From contig NZ_FQVU01000001.1 in NCBI RefSeq assembly GCF_900129455.1, positions 62,001 to 126,000 of the forward strand: 64,000 nucleotides of DNA, in the 5' to 3' direction. The notes under the pieces are model-generated. The model was not told where the DNA came from and ran no database searches. It worked only from the letters and a program-made list of their open reading frames with translations. The stretch comes from Jatrophihabitans endophyticus. GTDB lineage: Bacteria; Actinomycetota; Actinomycetes; Mycobacteriales; Jatrophihabitantaceae. This document shows, one piece after another, positions 3,250 to 55,454 of the stretch; position 1 is the first letter of the stretch, and the number at the start of each line of letters is the position of its first letter. The position numbers and the translations under genes are program-made.

Positions 3250-4764
3250 TCAGGAGGAGGTGTCGTACTGGTCGAAGTGGATCCGCTCGCTGCGCACGCC
3301 GCGCCCGACCAGGCTGAAGACCGTCGTCGAGATCATGGTGTCGGGACCGGCGACGAGGACGTCGACGTCGAGCTGCGCCCAGTCCTTCAACGTCGGCACG
3401 ACGTCCTCCACCTTGCCCCGCAGCCCGGTGTAGCCGGGGTCCTGCGACACCACGCCGTAGACCTGGACCACGTCGGCGCGGCCGGCCCGCTCGACGGCGC
3501 GGGCGAGCAGCTCGGCCGGGTAGAGCTCGGCGGCCGAGCGCGCACCCACGAAGACCTGCGTCGCCGGGCACTGCGGGTGGCCGAGCAGTGACTCGACGAC
3601 CGCGACCATCGGGGCCGCACCGGTGCCGGCGCAGACGCACAGCAAGCCGCCGGGCCCGAGCGTCCCCGGCTCGACGACCAGGCCGTTGCCCCGCGGCGGC
3701 CCCAGCCGCACCCGGTCGCCGACCGTCGTGTGCATGACGAGGGCCGCGGCCACCCCGGTCGCGTTCACCGCGCGCACGTGCAGGTCGACGGTGTTGTCCG
3801 GCCGGGGCGCGCTCGCCATCGACATCCGCCGCCACTCGCGCCGTCGCGTCGCGAGCTCGATCGTGAGGTACTGGCCCGGCCGGAAGGAGTACGGACCGTC
3901 GGGCTGCAGCCGCACGACGGCGAAGTCACGCACCGGGCGCTCGTGCGCGACCACGGTGGCGCCCCAGGCCGCGGGCTCGTCGCGCCGGGCCAGGGCGCCG
4001 TCGATCATCGTGCTGGCCAGCCGGGTGTAGCTGCCGGTGATCGCCCGGTCGATCTCATCGGTCCAGGCCTCGCCGAGCAGGGTGCGCCATGTGCTGCGCA
4101 GTGCTTGGGCGGCGAGGTCGTAGTGCCGCGGCTCGACGTCGAACTTGCGGTGGTCGGCACCGAGTTGGGCGAGGTGCGCCGACATCGACTCGGGATCGTC
4201 GGCGACCACCCACTGCACCAGTGCCCGGCCGAAGTCCTCGCGCTGCGCGCTCATGCTCACCGGGAACATCCGGAAGGCGTCCTCGCCGAGGAGCAGGAAC
4301 AGCTCGGCGTAGAAGTTGCGGACGAGCGTGTCCGCGCGGTCGGCGACGAGCTCCCACGCATGGCGCACCAGCGCACGGTCGTAGGGGCGGGCGTCGGCGG
4401 CGTAGGAGCGGGGGAGCGCCGGGTCGACGCGCCGCAGCTCGGCGGGACCGACGACGAGGCCGGCGACCGGGCCGGCGACCGGGCCGGCGGCGGGATCGGG
4501 CGCCGGAGCAGCAGCGGGAGCCGCCGGAGCGGGATCCGCCGGAGCGGGGGTCGTCGAAGCCGGAGCAGCCGGCGCCGCGGCGGACCGGGGTCGGGAGTCG
4601 GCGGCGACGACGGGGGCGTCGGTGGGGATGAGCTCCCCGGTCGCCGGATCGGCCTGGTGCCGGTGCACCCGCGCCGGGGCACGGTCGGCACGGCCGCCGG
4701 CACGCTCCGCGCGTGGGTCCCCGTCCGAGCCGCGCCACCGGCCGAAGGCCTGACGGAGCCCCAT
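3250..4764 (-). CDS. Flavohaemoprotein-like globin/FAD/NAD(P) oxidoreductase
   Basis: Predicted nitric-oxide-dioxygenase-type protein. Residues 1-120 are a Pro/Ala-rich extension. A globin domain covers about 125-255, with proximal His 205 in DHRKFDVEPRHYD. A ferredoxin-reductase-type FAD domain has RPGQYLTIEL (295-304) and RRMSMAS in place of the usual RxYS. The NAD(P) domain carries CAGTGAAPM. Flavohaemoglobins convert NO to nitrate using O2 and NAD(P)H; this reaction is inferred from the architecture. At 504 aa it is about 100 residues longer than E. coli Hmp because of the low-complexity N terminus, whose role is unknown. Transcribed alone, divergent from the PPOX gene. Confidence 0.85.
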   Translation of the reverse strand: MGLRQAFGRWRGSDGDPRAERAGGRADRAPARVHRHQADPATGELIPTDAPVVAADSRPRSAAAPAAPASTTPAPADPAPAAPAAAPAPDPAAGPVAGPVAGLVVGPAELRRVDPALPRSYAADARPYDRALVRHAWELVADRADTLVRNFYAELFLLLGEDAFRMFPVSMSAQREDFGRALVQWVVADDPESMSAHLAQLGADHRKFDVEPRHYDLAAQALRSTWRTLLGEAWTDEIDRAITGSYTRLASTMIDGALARRDEPAAWGATVVAHERPVRDFAVVRLQPDGPYSFRPGQYLTIELATRRREWRRMSMASAPRPDNTVDLHVRAVNATGVAAALVMHTTVGDRVRLGPPRGNGLVVEPGTLGPGGLLCVCAGTGAAPMVAVVESLLGHPQCPATQVFVGARSAAELYPAELLARAVERAGRADVVQVYGVVSQDPGYTGLRGKVEDVVPTLKDWAQLDVDVLVAGPDTMISTTVFSLVGRGVRSERIHFDQYDTSS

Positions 4765-4938
4765 GTCGTCGCCTCCAGGTCAACTGGAGCTTCACTGTAG
4801 CGGTCGGGGTAGCGTCCGCGGGAGACTCGAGTGGGCCGGATTCGGCGACGCCGCCGTCGCCGACCGGACGGCCGCTGGCAAGGCGTCGTCCCGGCCGAGG
4901 ACGCCGACGCAGAGCACGCACACGATCGGGAGCGAACG

Positions 4939-5589
4939 ATGGCCGACGACGTCGAGGCGCCGGCACCCGAGCGGCCCGGGTCGGTGGGGGAGCACCTGCT
5001 GCAGGACCGGTACGGCACCCGCGAGCGCGCCGACCGCTTCTACCGCGAGCAGATGCTCGACTCCCTCACCCCCCGGATGGCGGCGTTCATCGCGGTGCAG
5101 ACGCAGCTGGTGGTGGCGACCGCCGACCCGGAGGGCCGCCCCGACGTGTCGGTGCGCTTCGGCGAACCGGGCTTCGTGCAGATGATCGACCGGCACACGC
5201 TGTGCTGGCCGGAGCTGCGCGGCAACGGGGTGATGACGACCCTCGGCAACCTGACCACCAACCCGTGGGCCCACCTGATGTTCCTCGACGGCGACGAGCG
5301 GATCGGCCTGCACGTGCGCGGCGAGACCCGCATCGTCGAGGCCGAGCAGATGGCCGTGGAGCATCCCGCCGTCGTCGCCGTGCCGATGAGCGGGCGGCCC
5401 CCCGACCGCTGGGTGGTGCTGCGGCTGGCGAGCAGCTACGTCCACTGCCGCAAGCACTTCCCCCGTTCCGACGCGCCGGTGGAATGGGGCACCGACGACG
5501 TCCGGGCCAAGGGGGGCGACTACTTCGGCGCGCGGGACACCCCGTCGGCGTGGGCGCCGCGGCCGCCGCGGAGCCGGCCGGCCGGCTGA
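4939..5589 (+). CDS. PPOX-class (pyridoxamine 5'-phosphate oxidase-like) FMN/F420-binding family protein
   Basis: A 216-residue split-barrel protein: RMAAFIAVQTQLVVATADPE, GRPDVSVRFGEPGFV and GNLTTNPWAHLMFLDGDER are typical of PPOX-family strands that line the flavin pocket. Substrate and cofactor (FMN or F420) cannot be told from sequence. The ATG at 4939 is preferred because GGGAG lies eight bases upstream; an earlier in-frame start at 4831 would add Arg-rich non-family residues. First of three plus-strand genes with gaps of 51 and 7 bp, so perhaps an operon. Confidence 0.75.
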   Translation: MADDVEAPAPERPGSVGEHLLQDRYGTRERADRFYREQMLDSLTPRMAAFIAVQTQLVVATADPEGRPDVSVRFGEPGFVQMIDRHTLCWPELRGNGVMTTLGNLTTNPWAHLMFLDGDERIGLHVRGETRIVEAEQMAVEHPAVVAVPMSGRPPDRWVVLRLASSYVHCRKHFPRSDAPVEWGTDDVRAKGGDYFGARDTPSAWAPRPPRSRPAG

Positions 5590-44923: not shown

Positions 44924-47900
44924 GTGAAGCTGTCACCCGGCCGGAGGACGAGGGTGCGCGTCGCGCTGCCCTTGGCCGTGGCCCTGAGCGTGTCGGTGCT
45001 GTCACCGATCGCGAACGCGACCCCCACGACCACCGCTCCCGCGGCGAGCCCGGCGGCCGCCGAGGCCACCACGCTGCCCGACCCGACGGCGCGCGGCACC
45101 GAGACGATCAAAACGATCCAGGAGGTCAAGCTCGGGCTGGCCGACCTGCAGGAGCCGAACTCGTCGGGCGCCGCGCCGGGGACGGGGCAGGCACAGTCGG
45201 CCGAACGATTCGAGATCCGTGGCGCGCTCTACTACCCGGCCGAGCGCAGCGAGCCCTCGCCGCTGATCGTGCTCGTCCACGGCAACCACGGCTCGTGCGA
45301 CGCCGGGCAGGACTCGACCACCGCGACGTGCACGTCCTTCAAGCGCAACGAGGCCGGCTACGCCTACCTCGGCGAGAACCTCGCGACGTGGGGCTACACC
45401 GTCTTCTCCCTGTCGCAGGACCAGCTGATGATGCGCCAGGACAACAGCAAGGGGAAGGGCATGCACCAGCGGCGCATGCTGATCGCCAAGGCCCTCGACG
45501 CGCTGTCGGCCGCGAACAAGCCCGGCGGCCTGACCGACGACGCGCACACCACCATCGGCGACACGCTCGCAGGCAGGCTCGACCTGACCCGCATCGGACT
45601 GATGGGGCACTCCCGCGGCGGCGACGCCGTCACCAGTTTCATCGACTACAACCGCATCCGCACCGACGGGCCGCGCTATCCGATTCGTGGCGTCATCTCG
45701 CTGGCGCCGGTCGACTACGAGCGCAAGGCGCCCTACGGCATGCCGTACATGACGATCCTGCCGATGTGCGACGGCGACGTCTCCAACCTGCAGGGCGCCC
45801 GCTTCTTCGAGCGCAGCCAGTACGCGAACCCGAACGACCCCTTCCCGCGCATCCAGGTCGAGCAGCTGGGCGCGATCCACAACTGGTACAACACCGTCTG
45901 GTACGCCGACGGCAGCGCGGACGGCCAGAACAACAACGACGCGGCGTGCGGCAACTCCACCCCGTTCGCCGACACCAACGTGCATCCGCACAACCTGCGG
46001 CTGTCGGGCGCCGCGAGCTACACCGACCCGGCGAAGAACTACGCGGTGAACAACGGGGCCGACAACGCCGACACCTACGACCCGGCCGTCAACACCAAGA
46101 TCTCGGGCGACCCGGCGCGCATGGGCGACCAGGAGAAGCTCGGCCTGGCCACCATGGCGGCGTTCTTCCGACGCTACGTCGGCGGTGAGGGCGCCTTCGA
46201 GCCGTACCTGACCGGCGAGCTCTCCGACACCGACTCGCACCTGCAGGTGCCCGCGTCCGCGTGCCCGACGAGCGACTCCGGTACCCGGATCGCGTGCTCG
46301 GAACGGGTCAACACCACCTACGTGGCGGCGCCGAACGAGCGGGTGGACCTCATCCGACCCGAGGTCGAGAACCCGCTCACGCTCGACGCGCTCGGCGGCT
46401 CGCTCACCGGCTCCGGCTTCGCCGACCCGTACGCGCAGGCCGCCGGCGTCACGCCCACCCCGAAGGCGACCGCCACCGGCTACGACTGGTGCAACCCCGA
46501 ACCGGACGACTTCGCCCCGTCGCAGCTCGGCAAGAGCACGCTGCCGACCGCGGCGAAGGCCTGCCCGCTGCCCGCCGCGAGCGCGCTGGGCGGCCAGAAC
46601 GGCATCCGCGAGAACGGTCCGGTCAACCAGTCCTACGGCCGGCAGCTCACCATGGCGTGGGAGCAGTCGAGCCCGGCCAGCCTCACCGCACAGATCCCGG
46701 CGGCGTCGAAGGACGTCAGCGGGCTGAAGGCGCTGGCGCTGGACGCGGACGTCAACTTCTTCGACACCCGCAACCCCGGCGCCGACGACCGCGGTGACAG
46801 CACCAAGGTCGGGTCGGACTGGCCGAACGAGAAGCCGACGTCCTACGACCCGACGGCCACGACGCAGGACTTCCTGATCGACCTGACCGACACCGACGGC
46901 CACGTCGCGACGGTGCACGCGAAGGACCCGCGCTGGGGCAACGCCCTGCACATGTCCACCGGCACGAACACGCCGAACACGCACATCGTGCTCGACCAGA
47001 TCCGTGTGCCGCTCACCGAGTTCACGAAGCAGGGCGTCGACACCGCCTCGCTGGCCTCGCTGCGGTTGCGCTTCGGGGCGGCGGGGACGCCGGCGTCCGG
47101 TTCGATCCAGCTCGCCGACGTCCGCTTCCAGGAGGCGACGGCCGGCTCGGCCGTCTACTCCGACGGCGACGTGGCGGACGGCGCCGGCTCGGGCCTGCCC
47201 ACCTCGGGCCCCGACCCGGTCGCGGTGCTGAACGGCACCGACAACACCGCCGGGAACGTGAAGCTCGTGGACACGGTGGGCAACGCCAAGGGCAACAGCA
47301 CCTGGGTCGTCGACGACGACAAGCAGCAGTGCCCGAACGCGAACTTCGCCAAGATCCAGGACGCCGTCGACCACGCCGCGCCGTGGGACACGATCGTGGT
47401 CTGTGCCGGCGTCTACCAGGAGTCGTCGACACCGGTCTACAGCGCGAGCAACCCGGTCGCGACCGGTGCCACGAACGGCCTGACGATCACGAAGCCGCTC
47501 AAGATCAAGGGCGCGGGCGCCGACAAGGTGACGATCGAGCCGGACCAGTCGCTCGACACGCTGGCCGGGGTCACCCCCTACCTGCGCGACGGCGGCGGCA
47601 ACGTCATCACCGTGTCGCGACAGTCGCTCGGCTCGACGGACACCAACGAGATGTTCGTGGACATCTCCGGGGTCACCGTGACCTCAGGGAACACCTTCGC
47701 CGAGGCCGGCATCGCGTACTTCGGGACGGCCGGCCGCGTCTCGGAGAGCGTGGTCGGACCGATGAAGGCTGCGAGCACGACGGCCGAGCTGGCCGACAAC
47801 CCCCACGGCTGGGGCATCGTGCGCACCGGTCTCGTGCTCGGCTCCGGCCCGGGCACGGTCGAGAGCGAGCTGACCGTCGCGAACAGCCTCGTCACCGGGT

Positions 47901-49267
47901 ACCAGGCCGGTGGCATCCTGTTCGACGGCGGCCGCGGCAAGGACGGCAGTGCCGACAACACCGTGCGCACCGGCATCCGGGCCCACGGGTACGTGACCGG
48001 CACCGTGGTGAGAGGCAAGCCCAACTCGCTTTTTGCGCAGACGGGCGTGAAATACGCCAGCGGCTTCGACGGGTTCGTACGCGGCAGTCGGATCACGGGC
48101 AACTACTTCAAGGCCGATCCCTCGAAGTCGTACGGCATCCTGCTCGCCGACGCGGGGACGGACACCACCACCGGGCTCTCCGGTTCGGGTGACGTCGTCA
48201 CCGGCAACGGGTTCGCCGTCTACAACGCCAACGCCGACAACAGCGCCGTCCGACAGTCGGCCCCGTTCGCGCTGTCGGCCAGCTACGTCGGGACGGGCGC
48301 ACCGGTCGCCGGGGGGCCGGCCGACCCGGCCGCGGGGACCGAGGCGATCTCCGGCCCGGACACCACGCCGGCGGCGACCGTCACCACGCCGGGCCGGCTC
48401 TCCTCGGCTCCAGCCTCGGTGCCGACCGCGGCGGGGAGCGTGGTCGACGCCGCGCCGACGGCCGCGCTCGCGGACCCCGTGGGCACGGCGAAGGTCGAGG
48501 CGGGCGCGACGCTCACGGCGCTCGCCCGGGCGACGGACGACCACGCCGTGCAGTCGGCGACGCTGCTCGTCGACGGCACCCCGGTGGCCACGACGGGGAT
48601 CGCGCCCTACCGGCTCACCTGGAGACCGGGCGCGGGCCTCGCGGGCAGGGTCGTCGACCTGCAGGCGCTCGTCACCGATTCCGCCGGGCAGCAGACCACG
48701 TCGGCTGCCGTCCGTACGACGGTGCTCGGTTCGTTCACCACCGCCCCGACGCCCCGCATCACCGGCACCGTCGCCGCGGGCCGGACGGTTCGGATCGCGG
48801 TGGGCACGTGGTCGCCGAAGCCGACGGCCTACGCCTACCAGTGGGCGGCCGACGGCACGGCGATCAAGGGGGCGACCCGGAGCAGCTACGTCGTGGCGAG
48901 GTCGCTGACCGGTCACCGGTTGACGGTGCGGGTCACGGCCACGCGGCCGAACTACGTGACCGCGTCGCGGACGTCCCGCCCGGCCCGGGTGTCCGGCGTC
49001 TTCGTCACCGCACGCCCGCGGATCACAGGCACGGTCGCGACCGGGCGCACGGTGAAGGCCGCGGTCGGGTCGTGGTCGCCCCGGCCGAGCGCCTACGCCT
49101 ACCGGTGGTACGCCGACGGCAAGGCGATCAAGGGTGCGACCCACGCGCGGTACACGATCGCGACCCGGTTCGCGGGCCGGGCGCTGACCGTGAAGGTCAC
49201 CGGCACGCGGTCGGGATACCTCACCGCGCGCGCGGTGTCGGCGAAGCGTCGCGTGGCCGCGTCGTAG
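44924..49267 (+). CDS. Giant secreted protein: alpha/beta hydrolase fused to beta-helix and Ig-like modules
   Basis: 1447 residues. Signal peptide about 1-33 (VALPLAVALSVSVLSPIANA). An alpha/beta-hydrolase domain covers about 65-420: PLIVLVHGNHGSCDAG, IGLMGHSRGGDAVTSF with nucleophile Ser230, and a His in LGAIHNWYNTVWYADG. A beta-sandwich-like region follows (about 560-740). A right-handed parallel beta-helix covers about 800-1100, starting ANFAKIQDAVDHAAPWDTIV. An Ig-like domain (about 1185-1265) and two modules of about 85 residues (TPRITGTVAAGRTVRIAVGT, RPRITGTVATGRTVKAAVGS) end the protein. Substrate unknown; an ester-bearing polysaccharide would fit. Ribosome-binding site GAGGAC. Confidence 0.85.
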   Translation: MKLSPGRRTRVRVALPLAVALSVSVLSPIANATPTTTAPAASPAAAEATTLPDPTARGTETIKTIQEVKLGLADLQEPNSSGAAPGTGQAQSAERFEIRGALYYPAERSEPSPLIVLVHGNHGSCDAGQDSTTATCTSFKRNEAGYAYLGENLATWGYTVFSLSQDQLMMRQDNSKGKGMHQRRMLIAKALDALSAANKPGGLTDDAHTTIGDTLAGRLDLTRIGLMGHSRGGDAVTSFIDYNRIRTDGPRYPIRGVISLAPVDYERKAPYGMPYMTILPMCDGDVSNLQGARFFERSQYANPNDPFPRIQVEQLGAIHNWYNTVWYADGSADGQNNNDAACGNSTPFADTNVHPHNLRLSGAASYTDPAKNYAVNNGADNADTYDPAVNTKISGDPARMGDQEKLGLATMAAFFRRYVGGEGAFEPYLTGELSDTDSHLQVPASACPTSDSGTRIACSERVNTTYVAAPNERVDLIRPEVENPLTLDALGGSLTGSGFADPYAQAAGVTPTPKATATGYDWCNPEPDDFAPSQLGKSTLPTAAKACPLPAASALGGQNGIRENGPVNQSYGRQLTMAWEQSSPASLTAQIPAASKDVSGLKALALDADVNFFDTRNPGADDRGDSTKVGSDWPNEKPTSYDPTATTQDFLIDLTDTDGHVATVHAKDPRWGNALHMSTGTNTPNTHIVLDQIRVPLTEFTKQGVDTASLASLRLRFGAAGTPASGSIQLADVRFQEATAGSAVYSDGDVADGAGSGLPTSGPDPVAVLNGTDNTAGNVKLVDTVGNAKGNSTWVVDDDKQQCPNANFAKIQDAVDHAAPWDTIVVCAGVYQESSTPVYSASNPVATGATNGLTITKPLKIKGAGADKVTIEPDQSLDTLAGVTPYLRDGGGNVITVSRQSLGSTDTNEMFVDISGVTVTSGNTFAEAGIAYFGTAGRVSESVVGPMKAASTTAELADNPHGWGIVRTGLVLGSGPGTVESELTVANSLVTGYQAGGILFDGGRGKDGSADNTVRTGIRAHGYVTGTVVRGKPNSLFAQTGVKYASGFDGFVRGSRITGNYFKADPSKSYGILLADAGTDTTTGLSGSGDVVTGNGFAVYNANADNSAVRQSAPFALSASYVGTGAPVAGGPADPAAGTEAISGPDTTPAATVTTPGRLSSAPASVPTAAGSVVDAAPTAALADPVGTAKVEAGATLTALARATDDHAVQSATLLVDGTPVATTGIAPYRLTWRPGAGLAGRVVDLQALVTDSAGQQTTSAAVRTTVLGSFTTAPTPRITGTVAAGRTVRIAVGTWSPKPTAYAYQWAADGTAIKGATRSSYVVARSLTGHRLTVRVTATRPNYVTASRTSRPARVSGVFVTARPRITGTVATGRTVKAAVGSWSPRPSAYAYRWYADGKAIKGATHARYTIATRFAGRALTVKVTGTRSGYLTARAVSAKRRVAAS

Positions 49268-49355: not shown

Positions 49356-49900
49356 TCAGGGCACCAGCACGATCCGGTCGGTGCTGTCGGCGGCCGCCGT
49401 CCACGCCTGCTCGACGTCGGCGAGCGGCACCGCGCGTGCCCGCACGTCGAACGCGCCGTCGGCCACCGCCGCCGCCAGCTGCGGGAGCTCGGCGAGGAAG
49501 TCCCGTCCCGGCACCGAGCCGATACCGCTGCCGACGAGCTGCACCCGGGCCGAGCGCAGCGCCGCGGACGGGATCGCGGCGGCGGGGCCGGCGACCGAGC
49601 CGATCTCGATCCAGGTGAGCGGCACGCCCCGGTCGCGGCGGGCGGTGAGCACGTCCACCAGCGCGCGTGCGGTGGGCTCGCCCCAGACGTAGTCGAGGAC
49701 GACGTCCACGTCGGCGGCCCGGTCGAGCTCGTCCAGGGTGCAGGTGACGTCGGCGCCGAGCGCCGCCACCTCGGCGAGCCGATCGGGGTCGCGGCCGGCG
49801 GCGACGACGTGTGCGGCCCCGAACCGCTTCGCGACCTGGACCGCCATGCGCCCGGCGTTCCCGGTCGCGCCGAGCACGAGCAGCGCGCGCACCACCTCGG
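49356..49900 (-). pseudogene. 5'-truncated quinone oxidoreductase (MDR family) remnant
   Basis: Only the NAD(P)-binding C-terminal half of a zinc-less medium-chain dehydrogenase remains: LLVLGATGNAGRMAVQVAKR, VLDYVWGEPTARALVDVL and ARAVPLADVEQAWTAAADS. The expected catalytic N-terminal half (about 140 residues) is absent. Upstream of about 49900 the frame enters sequence that codes, on the other strand, for a MarR protein that is itself missing its 5' end. No start codon or ribosome-binding site suits the remnant. This looks like one side of a deletion. Confidence 0.85.
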
Positions 49901-50141
49901 GCTGGACAAGTCCACGATGTCCGGGCTCGTCGAGCGCGCCGAGCGCCGCGGCCTGCTCGCCCGCGGCCCCAACCCCGACGACGGCCGCGCCGTCGACGTG
50001 GTCATGACGCCGGCCGGTCACGAGCTGGCCGAGCGGGTGTACGCGGACGTGCGGCGGGCACTCGGACCGCTGACCGAGGCCCTCGGCAGCCGCGAGCGGC
50101 AGGCGGTGACGCGACTGCTGGAGCGCATGCTCGAGCACTGA
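49893..50141 (+). pseudogene. 5'-truncated MarR family regulator remnant
   Basis: The sequence reads HLGLDKSTMSGLVERAERRG then NPDDGRAVDVVMTPAGHELA and LGSRERQAVTRLLERMLEH, the recognition helix, wing and C-terminal dimerisation helix of a MarR protein. The N-terminal 60-70 residues (dimerisation and first HTH helices) are missing. Left of about 49893 the same frame runs antisense through the quinone-oxidoreductase remnant. Facing truncated 5' ends mean that a divergent marR/oxidoreductase pair lost its whole shared promoter region. Confidence 0.85.
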
Positions 50142-50560: not shown

Positions 50561-50851
50561 TTAGGCGGTGGCGGTGTCCGGCGCCACGAGGTCGGGACCG
50601 GAGCGGACGTCGGGCTCGACGTGGGCGGCGAGCGTGGCGAGGTCGAGACCGAGGACGCCGCCGAGCGCGGCGACGGTGAAGAACGCCGGGGTGGGGATGC
50701 GGCCGGTCTCGATCTTGCGCAGCGTCTCGACCGGGACGCCCGCGGCGATCGCGACGTCGACCATGCTGCGCTCGCCCCGCGCCTGCCGCAGTGCCGCACC
50801 GAGCCGGCGGCCGCGGGCACGCTCGGCGGGGGAGAGGATCGGACGCACCAT
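50561..50851 (-). CDS. XRE family small helix-turn-helix regulator
   Basis: 96 residues from ATG 50851: RRLGAALRQARGERSMVDVA, IAAGVPVETLRKIETGRIPT and PAFFTVAALGGVLGLDLATL form a five-helix XRE DNA-binding domain with little beyond it. A TAGTAT -10-like hexamer at 50859-50864 would place the transcript start at the ATG, so the mRNA may be leaderless. It is divergent from map; a symmetrical operator lies between them and it probably represses itself and map. Confidence 0.85.
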   Translation of the reverse strand: MVRPILSPAERARGRRLGAALRQARGERSMVDVAIAAGVPVETLRKIETGRIPTPAFFTVAALGGVLGLDLATLAAHVEPDVRSGPDLVAPDTATA

Positions 50852-50855
50852 GACC

Positions 50856-50883
50856 GTGATACTAATACCGGTATAACAATCAC
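50856..50883. promoter_or_regulatory. Symmetrical operator between xre and map
   Basis: GTGAT (50856-50860), N4, ATACCGGTAT (50865-50874), N4, ATCAC (50879-50883): all three parts share one axis. TATAAC (50872-50877) is a plausible -10 for map, and TAGTAT on the other strand (50859-50864) for xre, so a bound dimer would cover both promoters. Confidence 0.7.
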
Positions 50884-50903
50884 GCTCATCGAGGGGACGC
50901 AGC

Positions 50904-51671
50904 ATGGTCGAGCTGAAGACGCCGGGGGAGATCGAGGCCATGGCGGCTGCGGGAGCGGTCGTCGCCCGGGCACTGGCCGCGACCCGTGCTGCCGCCGCGG
51001 TCGGAGTGCGGCTGGGGCAGTTGGACGAGGTCGCGCGGGGGGTGCTGCGCGAGGCCGGCGCCAGCTCGCCGTTCCTCGGCTACCAGCCGTCCTTCGCCGG
51101 CAGTCCCTATCCGGGCGTGGTGTGCCTGTCCGTCAACGACGCCGTTCTCCACGGCACCCCCACCCGTTACCGACTGCGTGACGGCGACCTGCTCAGCGTC
51201 GACTGCGGCGCGACGCTCGACGGCTGGACCGGTGACGCCGCGATCTCCTTCTGCATCGGCACCACCGGCCCCGCCGACGCCCGACTGCTCGAGCGCACCG
51301 AGGCCGCGTTGACGGCGGGCATTGCCGCCGCGCAGCCCGGGGCGCGCATCGGCGACATCTCCGCCGCGATCGGCGCAGTCGCCCGCGACGCCGGGTACGG
51401 GCTGTCGACGGACTTCGGCGGCCACGGCGTCGGCCACACCATGCACGAGAGCCCGCACATCCCCAACGACGGTCGTCCCGGACGCGGCATGCGCCTGGAG
51501 GCCGGACTCACCGTCGCGATCGAGCCGTGGTTCCTCGCCGGCGGGCAGGACGCCTATCGCGTCGACGACGACGGCTGGACGTTGCGCAGCACGGACGGCT
51601 CCCGCGGTGCGCACTTCGAGCACACCATCGCCGTCACCGACGACGGCCCGCGCGTGCTGACCGTCTGCTGA
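50904..51671 (+). CDS. map: Type I methionine aminopeptidase
   Basis: 255 residues. Removes N-terminal Met from nascent proteins, using two metal ions. Metal ligands are visible: Asp in SVDCGATLDG and GWTGDAA, His in GGHGVGHTMHESPH, and Glu in TVAIEPWFLAGG and HFEHTIAV. It lacks the N-terminal zinc/SH3-binding extension of the MapB type. ATG 50904 is preceded by GAGGGGAC. Genomes of this group usually carry a further map gene beside the translation operon (known from relatives), so this copy, under XRE control, may be conditional. Confidence 0.92.
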   Translation: MVELKTPGEIEAMAAAGAVVARALAATRAAAAVGVRLGQLDEVARGVLREAGASSPFLGYQPSFAGSPYPGVVCLSVNDAVLHGTPTRYRLRDGDLLSVDCGATLDGWTGDAAISFCIGTTGPADARLLERTEAALTAGIAAAQPGARIGDISAAIGAVARDAGYGLSTDFGGHGVGHTMHESPHIPNDGRPGRGMRLEAGLTVAIEPWFLAGGQDAYRVDDDGWTLRSTDGSRGAHFEHTIAVTDDGPRVLTVC

Positions 51672-55044: not shown

Positions 55045-55454
55045 GACGGAGATAGTGCAGGTCGAAGGCACGTCCGTCGAAGTCGACAGCGGGGCCCAGG
55101 TAGCGGGAGTCTGGGCCGATTGACATAATGTGCATTATCGGCGCGATGTGCTGGATCACCAGCCGACCCCGCCGCGGGACGGCAGCTGCCCGAGCGGACC
55201 TGCCGTCCCGCGATCCATGCGATGACGTACGCGCCTCATCATCCTGCACGCCGCTCGTCGATGAACGTCGCTCGTATGACGAACGCGCCGCACGGGTTCG
55301 GGTCGGCGCCGACCACACCGTATGGGACGCGGCGGCATTGTCCGGCGCGACCGCTCCCGGCTCCAGGCGTCCGGCGTCCACGCGGATCGGATTGACATAA
55401 CGTCTTGCGCAGACGGTCTCGGCCGTCGCGGTGCCGACGGAGCACGGCGGTGGG
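55045..55454. promoter_or_regulatory. 410-bp gene-poor region upstream of the XRE gene
   Basis: Contains two copies of GATTGACATAA[T/C]GT, at about 55116-55129 and 55390-55403. The first overlaps the dyad ATAATG-TG-CATTAT (about 55123-55136), a likely XRE binding site. A small plus-strand reading frame (55128-55400) between the copies has no ribosome-binding site or recognisable product, so I do not call it. The rest shows no structure I can identify; it may hold remnants of a degraded gene. Confidence 0.45.

Follow-up and report, generated by a model that had tools for sequence, protein, structure and literature searches.

The window analysed here is a stretch of 64,000 nucleotides of Jatrophihabitans endophyticus DNA. 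Near its position 49,885 a quinone-oxidoreductase-like gene and a MarR-type regulator gene, on opposite strands, meet at truncated 5' ends. The question is how two genes came to lose their beginnings at the same point, and whether either is still a gene. The locus is very probably a double pseudogene left by one deletion of about 650 bp in a divergent marR/oxidoreductase pair. As such, it is an ordinary double pseudogene and a case of ordinary bacterial gene loss, clean and fairly fresh. The features concerned are as follows.

49356 to 49886, minus strand: C-terminal remnant of an MDR-superfamily, quinone-oxidoreductase-like oxidoreductase, about 176 codons and a stop, with about the first 135 codons gone
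49883 to 49886, no strand: deletion junction, bases assignable to neither parent gene, with about 650 bp missing
49887 to 50141 (start at 49887 or 49893), plus strand: C-terminal remnant of a MarR-family regulator, about 84 codons and a stop, with about the first 58 codons gone
About 50561 to 51671, to the right of the remnants: an HTH_31 regulator gene (minus strand) and a type I methionyl aminopeptidase gene (plus strand), overlapping and divergent

The remnants and the junction

A preliminary description of the locus held that both genes lack their N-terminal parts, and the profile searches agree. The oxidoreductase remnant matches Pfam ADH_zinc_N (E 9.4e-9). Its best NCBIfam match is TIGR02824 (PIG3-type quinone oxidoreductase), of which it covers positions 142 to 268 of 325 only, scoring 29.8 bits against a cut-off of 296.8. 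Since the intact homologue in genome G056, which covers positions 1 to 268, likewise falls under this cut-off with 71.1 bits, the intact family is PIG3-like only. The MarR remnant enters Pfam MarR_2 at position 29 of 61 (E 8.5e-10) and Pfam MarR at position 24 of 59, and shares 73.9% identity with the intact G056 MarR across 69 residues. Neither remnant has what defines its family when complete, which is an N-terminal part with a nucleotide-binding domain for the MDR oxidoreductases and a full winged helix-turn-helix with an N-terminal dimerisation helix for the MarR regulators. The frames holding both remnants extend into the antisense of the opposite gene, which means little because the DNA is 74-77% GC.

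The ends were placed by base-by-base comparison with up to 40 relatives per side. The match on the oxidoreductase side ends at 49882 and that on the MarR side begins at 49887, within a few bases of the earlier estimate of 49885 to 49905. The oxidoreductase remnant is at most 77% identical in protein to intact homologues, and because the closest relative reaches only about this level, the four bases at the junction are assignable to neither gene. The homologous points on either side are 6 bp apart in the window and 558 to 1,141 bp apart (mostly 633 to 806 bp) in 60 divergent pairs of relatives, so about 650 bp is missing. Measured on the intact G056 proteins (oxidoreductase 308 residues, MarR 146 residues), this amounts to about 135 oxidoreductase codons, the intergenic region and about 58 MarR codons. 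The intergenic region is 83 bp in G056, with a median of 91.5 bp over the 60 pairs.

It is unlikely that two or more successive deletions made the junction. The copy of the same pair in genome G034 does carry two separate deletions, but a single junction with about four unassignable bases fits one event, and no scrap of intergenic sequence survives between the remnants. The earlier claim of a single deletion of several hundred base pairs is thus upheld in size and as the simplest history, although its singleness is not provable, the G034 pair having been hit twice.

Short homology at the junction had been suggested as something to look for, and any repeat shared there is no more than a few bases long. 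This speaks against homologous recombination between repeats and also against collapse by the assembler. A copy of the missing segment elsewhere in the genome was considered and rejected. For the lost oxidoreductase N-terminus there are only two paralogues, of 28% and 38% identity, and for the lost part of MarR, besides the remnant itself, only paralogues at 29-40%. The absence of the segment from the rest of the genome is what would be expected of a pseudogene pair. A misassembly, with the segment present in the organism and skipped or collapsed by the assembler, is very improbable. The assembly is a 10-contig draft and 98.54% complete, but a collapse needs a direct repeat of about the k-mer length of the assembler, and at most a few bases can be shared at the junction. 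Furthermore, no other contig carries the lost coding segments, and a chimaeric join made at random would not bring together both halves of one divergent pair, correctly ordered.

The divergent pair and its control region

Relatives were sought in 101 genomes of the same order and in a collection of named genomes. The pair analysis covered 79 loci, 9 from the same-order genomes and 70 from the named collection, of which 78 are distinct (L150 was dropped as a duplicate of L073). In 57 of the 78, marR is divergent from and head to head with an intact oxidoreductase gene. Three more divergent pairs have a broken oxidoreductase (L138, L145 and L156), which brings the divergent total to 60. An intact oxidoreductase with no marR within the stretch examined is found at 12 loci and a broken one at two (L105 and L128). 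The marR gene is on the opposite strand, not head to head, at two (L089 and L091), on the same strand as the oxidoreductase at one (L107), and the G034 copy (L070) forms a class of its own.

An intact homologous pair in the same arrangement, as a pseudogene pair should have elsewhere, is therefore provided by the 57 loci. The proposal that an ancestral divergent pair was stripped of its two 5' ends along with the control region between them is borne out by these relatives, with their approximately 650 bp between the points that touch in the window. In none of the 78 distinct loci is the fused arrangement the normal one. The idea that two unrelated fragments came together by chance was rejected, as 60 of the 78 related loci have the pair.

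Comparison with close relatives, put forward as a check in the preliminary description, was fruitful in that the intact divergent pair was recovered, but not in a close sister. None of the genomes searched proved to be such a sister with the pair still whole at this site, and neither of the two same-genus genomes searched (76% and 79% complete) has an ortholog. The parental state is for this reason read from more distant relatives, which are at most 77% identical.

The oxidoreductase tree, from which L153-L155 were left out, is patchy. The window copy is in a group of 38 rows (support 100/98), mostly from Micromonosporaceae and Streptosporangiaceae, and the copies of the same-family genomes G011 and G015 fall elsewhere. 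No sister of the window copy is well supported, and the end branch leading to it, at 0.26, is slightly longer than the median of 0.22. Such a distribution suggests that the pair may have a history of transfer between lineages or of differential loss. The marR/oxidoreductase unit is accessory and often lost. The HTH/methionyl-aminopeptidase block beside the remnants, at about 50606-51671, is conserved in five genomes of the family at 77-88% DNA identity, and in these five the marR/oxidoreductase pair is absent beside it. This places the remnants at the edge of a variable stretch. On the other side, positions 44924 to 49267 of the window encode a 1447-residue protein with a Big_7 Ig domain, repeated C-terminal modules and a putative signal peptide, recognised by eye. 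This gene has little DNA-level similarity within the family.

Between the divergent genes of relatives, palindromes near GTTNGTAWTACNAAC are present in 49 of 58 intact intergenic regions, usually as two copies, and nine of the 58 have none. The count was made on relatives with an intergenic region of 0-300 bp (n=58), with L101 (-15) and L111 (556) dropped. Sites of this type number 99 inside the intergenic regions (11.7 per kb) versus 4 in the flanking DNA (0.010 per kb); the pattern was read from the same intergenic regions in which it was later counted, and only the contrast with flanking DNA is independent. Two or three palindromes per region are seen in L069, L093-L100, L103, L106, L108-L110, L112-L114 and others, and their commonest spacings are 28 bp and 22 bp.

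From their position and symmetry only, these palindromes are probably MarR operators. MarR autorepression has this established signature, with palindromes set in pairs in the gap between marR and the gene divergent from it. Because of this resemblance, the intact unit would most likely be an autoregulated divergon, with both genes kept repressed by MarR as long as no ligand is present. Palindromic putative operators are thus present in the divergent intergenic regions of relatives and absent in the window. At up to 3 mismatches, the 19-base palindrome has no match in the window or in the whole of its own genome, which indicates that the deletion removed the putative operators together with both promoters and the start of each gene. 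The idea that orphan operators survive somewhere in the genome was accordingly rejected. A single 15-mer match at window position 55270 (2 mismatches) was judged to be chance, given the background outside intergenic regions.

Coupled with the junction, the control region of the relatives suggests the following history. The ancestor would have had a MarR-family repressor gene on the plus strand and an MDR oxidoreductase gene on the minus strand, with start codons about 90 bp apart that flanked two palindromes presumably bound by the regulator. One illegitimate deletion of about 650 bp would have taken about 135 codons from the oxidoreductase gene, about 58 from marR and the entire promoter/operator region between them, so that what was left of the two coding sequences came to abut head to head. 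The probable mechanism is end-joining that needed little homology or none; Ku for it is encoded in the genome (E 8.6e-54). The oxidoreductase would then have been without its N-terminal part and the MarR without the first half of its winged helix. Having lost promoter, start codon and N-terminal parts, both genes would have become pseudogenes, with little mutation since.

A literature search, judged from the search results alone, returned no paper that evidently describes this MarR divergon. It is apparently undescribed; it has a strong putative operator motif and is widely distributed in actinobacteria. The comparison points to a conserved actinobacterial MarR divergon with a putative operator motif that can be tested.

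Age and preservation of the remnants

The C-terminal sequences had been called well preserved, and this is the case. Among near-invariant columns, conserved in at least 95% of relatives, 0 of 41 are changed in the oxidoreductase remnant and 1 of 16 in the MarR remnant. At columns conserved at 90%, there are two oxidoreductase deviations (V to L at the edge of the junction, and L to V). The test used 74 oxidoreductase and 60 MarR rows besides the window, with L070, L138, L145 and L156 dropped for a broken or split oxidoreductase match. Third-position GC is 96.6% in the oxidoreductase remnant and 95.1% in the MarR remnant, and there are no frame breaks in either.

When neutral change was simulated from the remnants as they now are, the probability of staying free of stops and of any additional deviation dropped to 0.03 at 3% substitutions per site. 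As the present sequence was the starting point, counting the one deviation seen as new shifts the limit to about 4-5%, a hand estimate from the simulation means. On the assumption of neutrality, the sequence has diverged by less than roughly 3-5% since the deletion. The event is thus recent, as had been proposed, in relative terms and not as a calendar date. Retained selection on the remnants would look identical, and there is no positive support for it. It is scarcely credible that the remnants still work as short proteins made from starts created by the fusion, one as an isolated nucleotide-binding domain and the other as the short C-terminal half of a MarR: both are in open frames with their conserved columns intact, and an in-frame GTG is present at 49890-49892 on the minus strand, but the arrangement is normal in none of the loci classified, long open frames are expected without selection at this GC content, the native promoter region and putative operators are gone, and youth explains the intactness equally well.

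Comparison with intact and broken pairs

The double pseudogene has the same genes, order and orientation as the divergent pairs of G056, Cellulomonas chitinilytica (L095), Micromonospora okii (L114) and Dactylosporangium sp. (L093), with identities of 67-74% for the oxidoreductase and 62-74% for MarR. Unlike these, it is without both 5' ends and the operator-bearing intergenic region.

Broken oxidoreductase genes, with frame changes or an internal deletion, are also found in five of the 78 loci besides G034 (L105, L128, L138, L145 and L156), all from other actinobacteria. Some of these may be draft-assembly or sequencing errors.

A close parallel is the G034 pair (L070, at about 4251-5198), from a same-order genome (f12) that shares its genus, g23, with G056. 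As in the window, the intergenic region and the MarR N-terminus are lost, leaving the two shortened 5' ends no more than a few bases apart. However, the breakpoints are different: what remains of marR begins at residue 35 and what remains of the oxidoreductase at residue 5, and a second deletion has removed about residues 140-212 of the oxidoreductase. Since the breakpoints differ, the two losses are independent. The independent losses in the window and in G034 might hint at a divergon that is readily and repeatedly inactivated by way of its common control region, perhaps under selection, but this is unlikely. If true, joint silencing would be favoured, for example where an unrepressed enzyme is costly once the inducer or substrate is gone.

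Bacterial pseudogenes that arise from deletion generally represent the loss of a dispensable gene by an illegitimate event. The locus in the window differs from these in that two divergent genes have been silenced together via their common control region. It is a clean case of one deletion silencing two divergent genes through a common promoter, caught before the remnants decayed.
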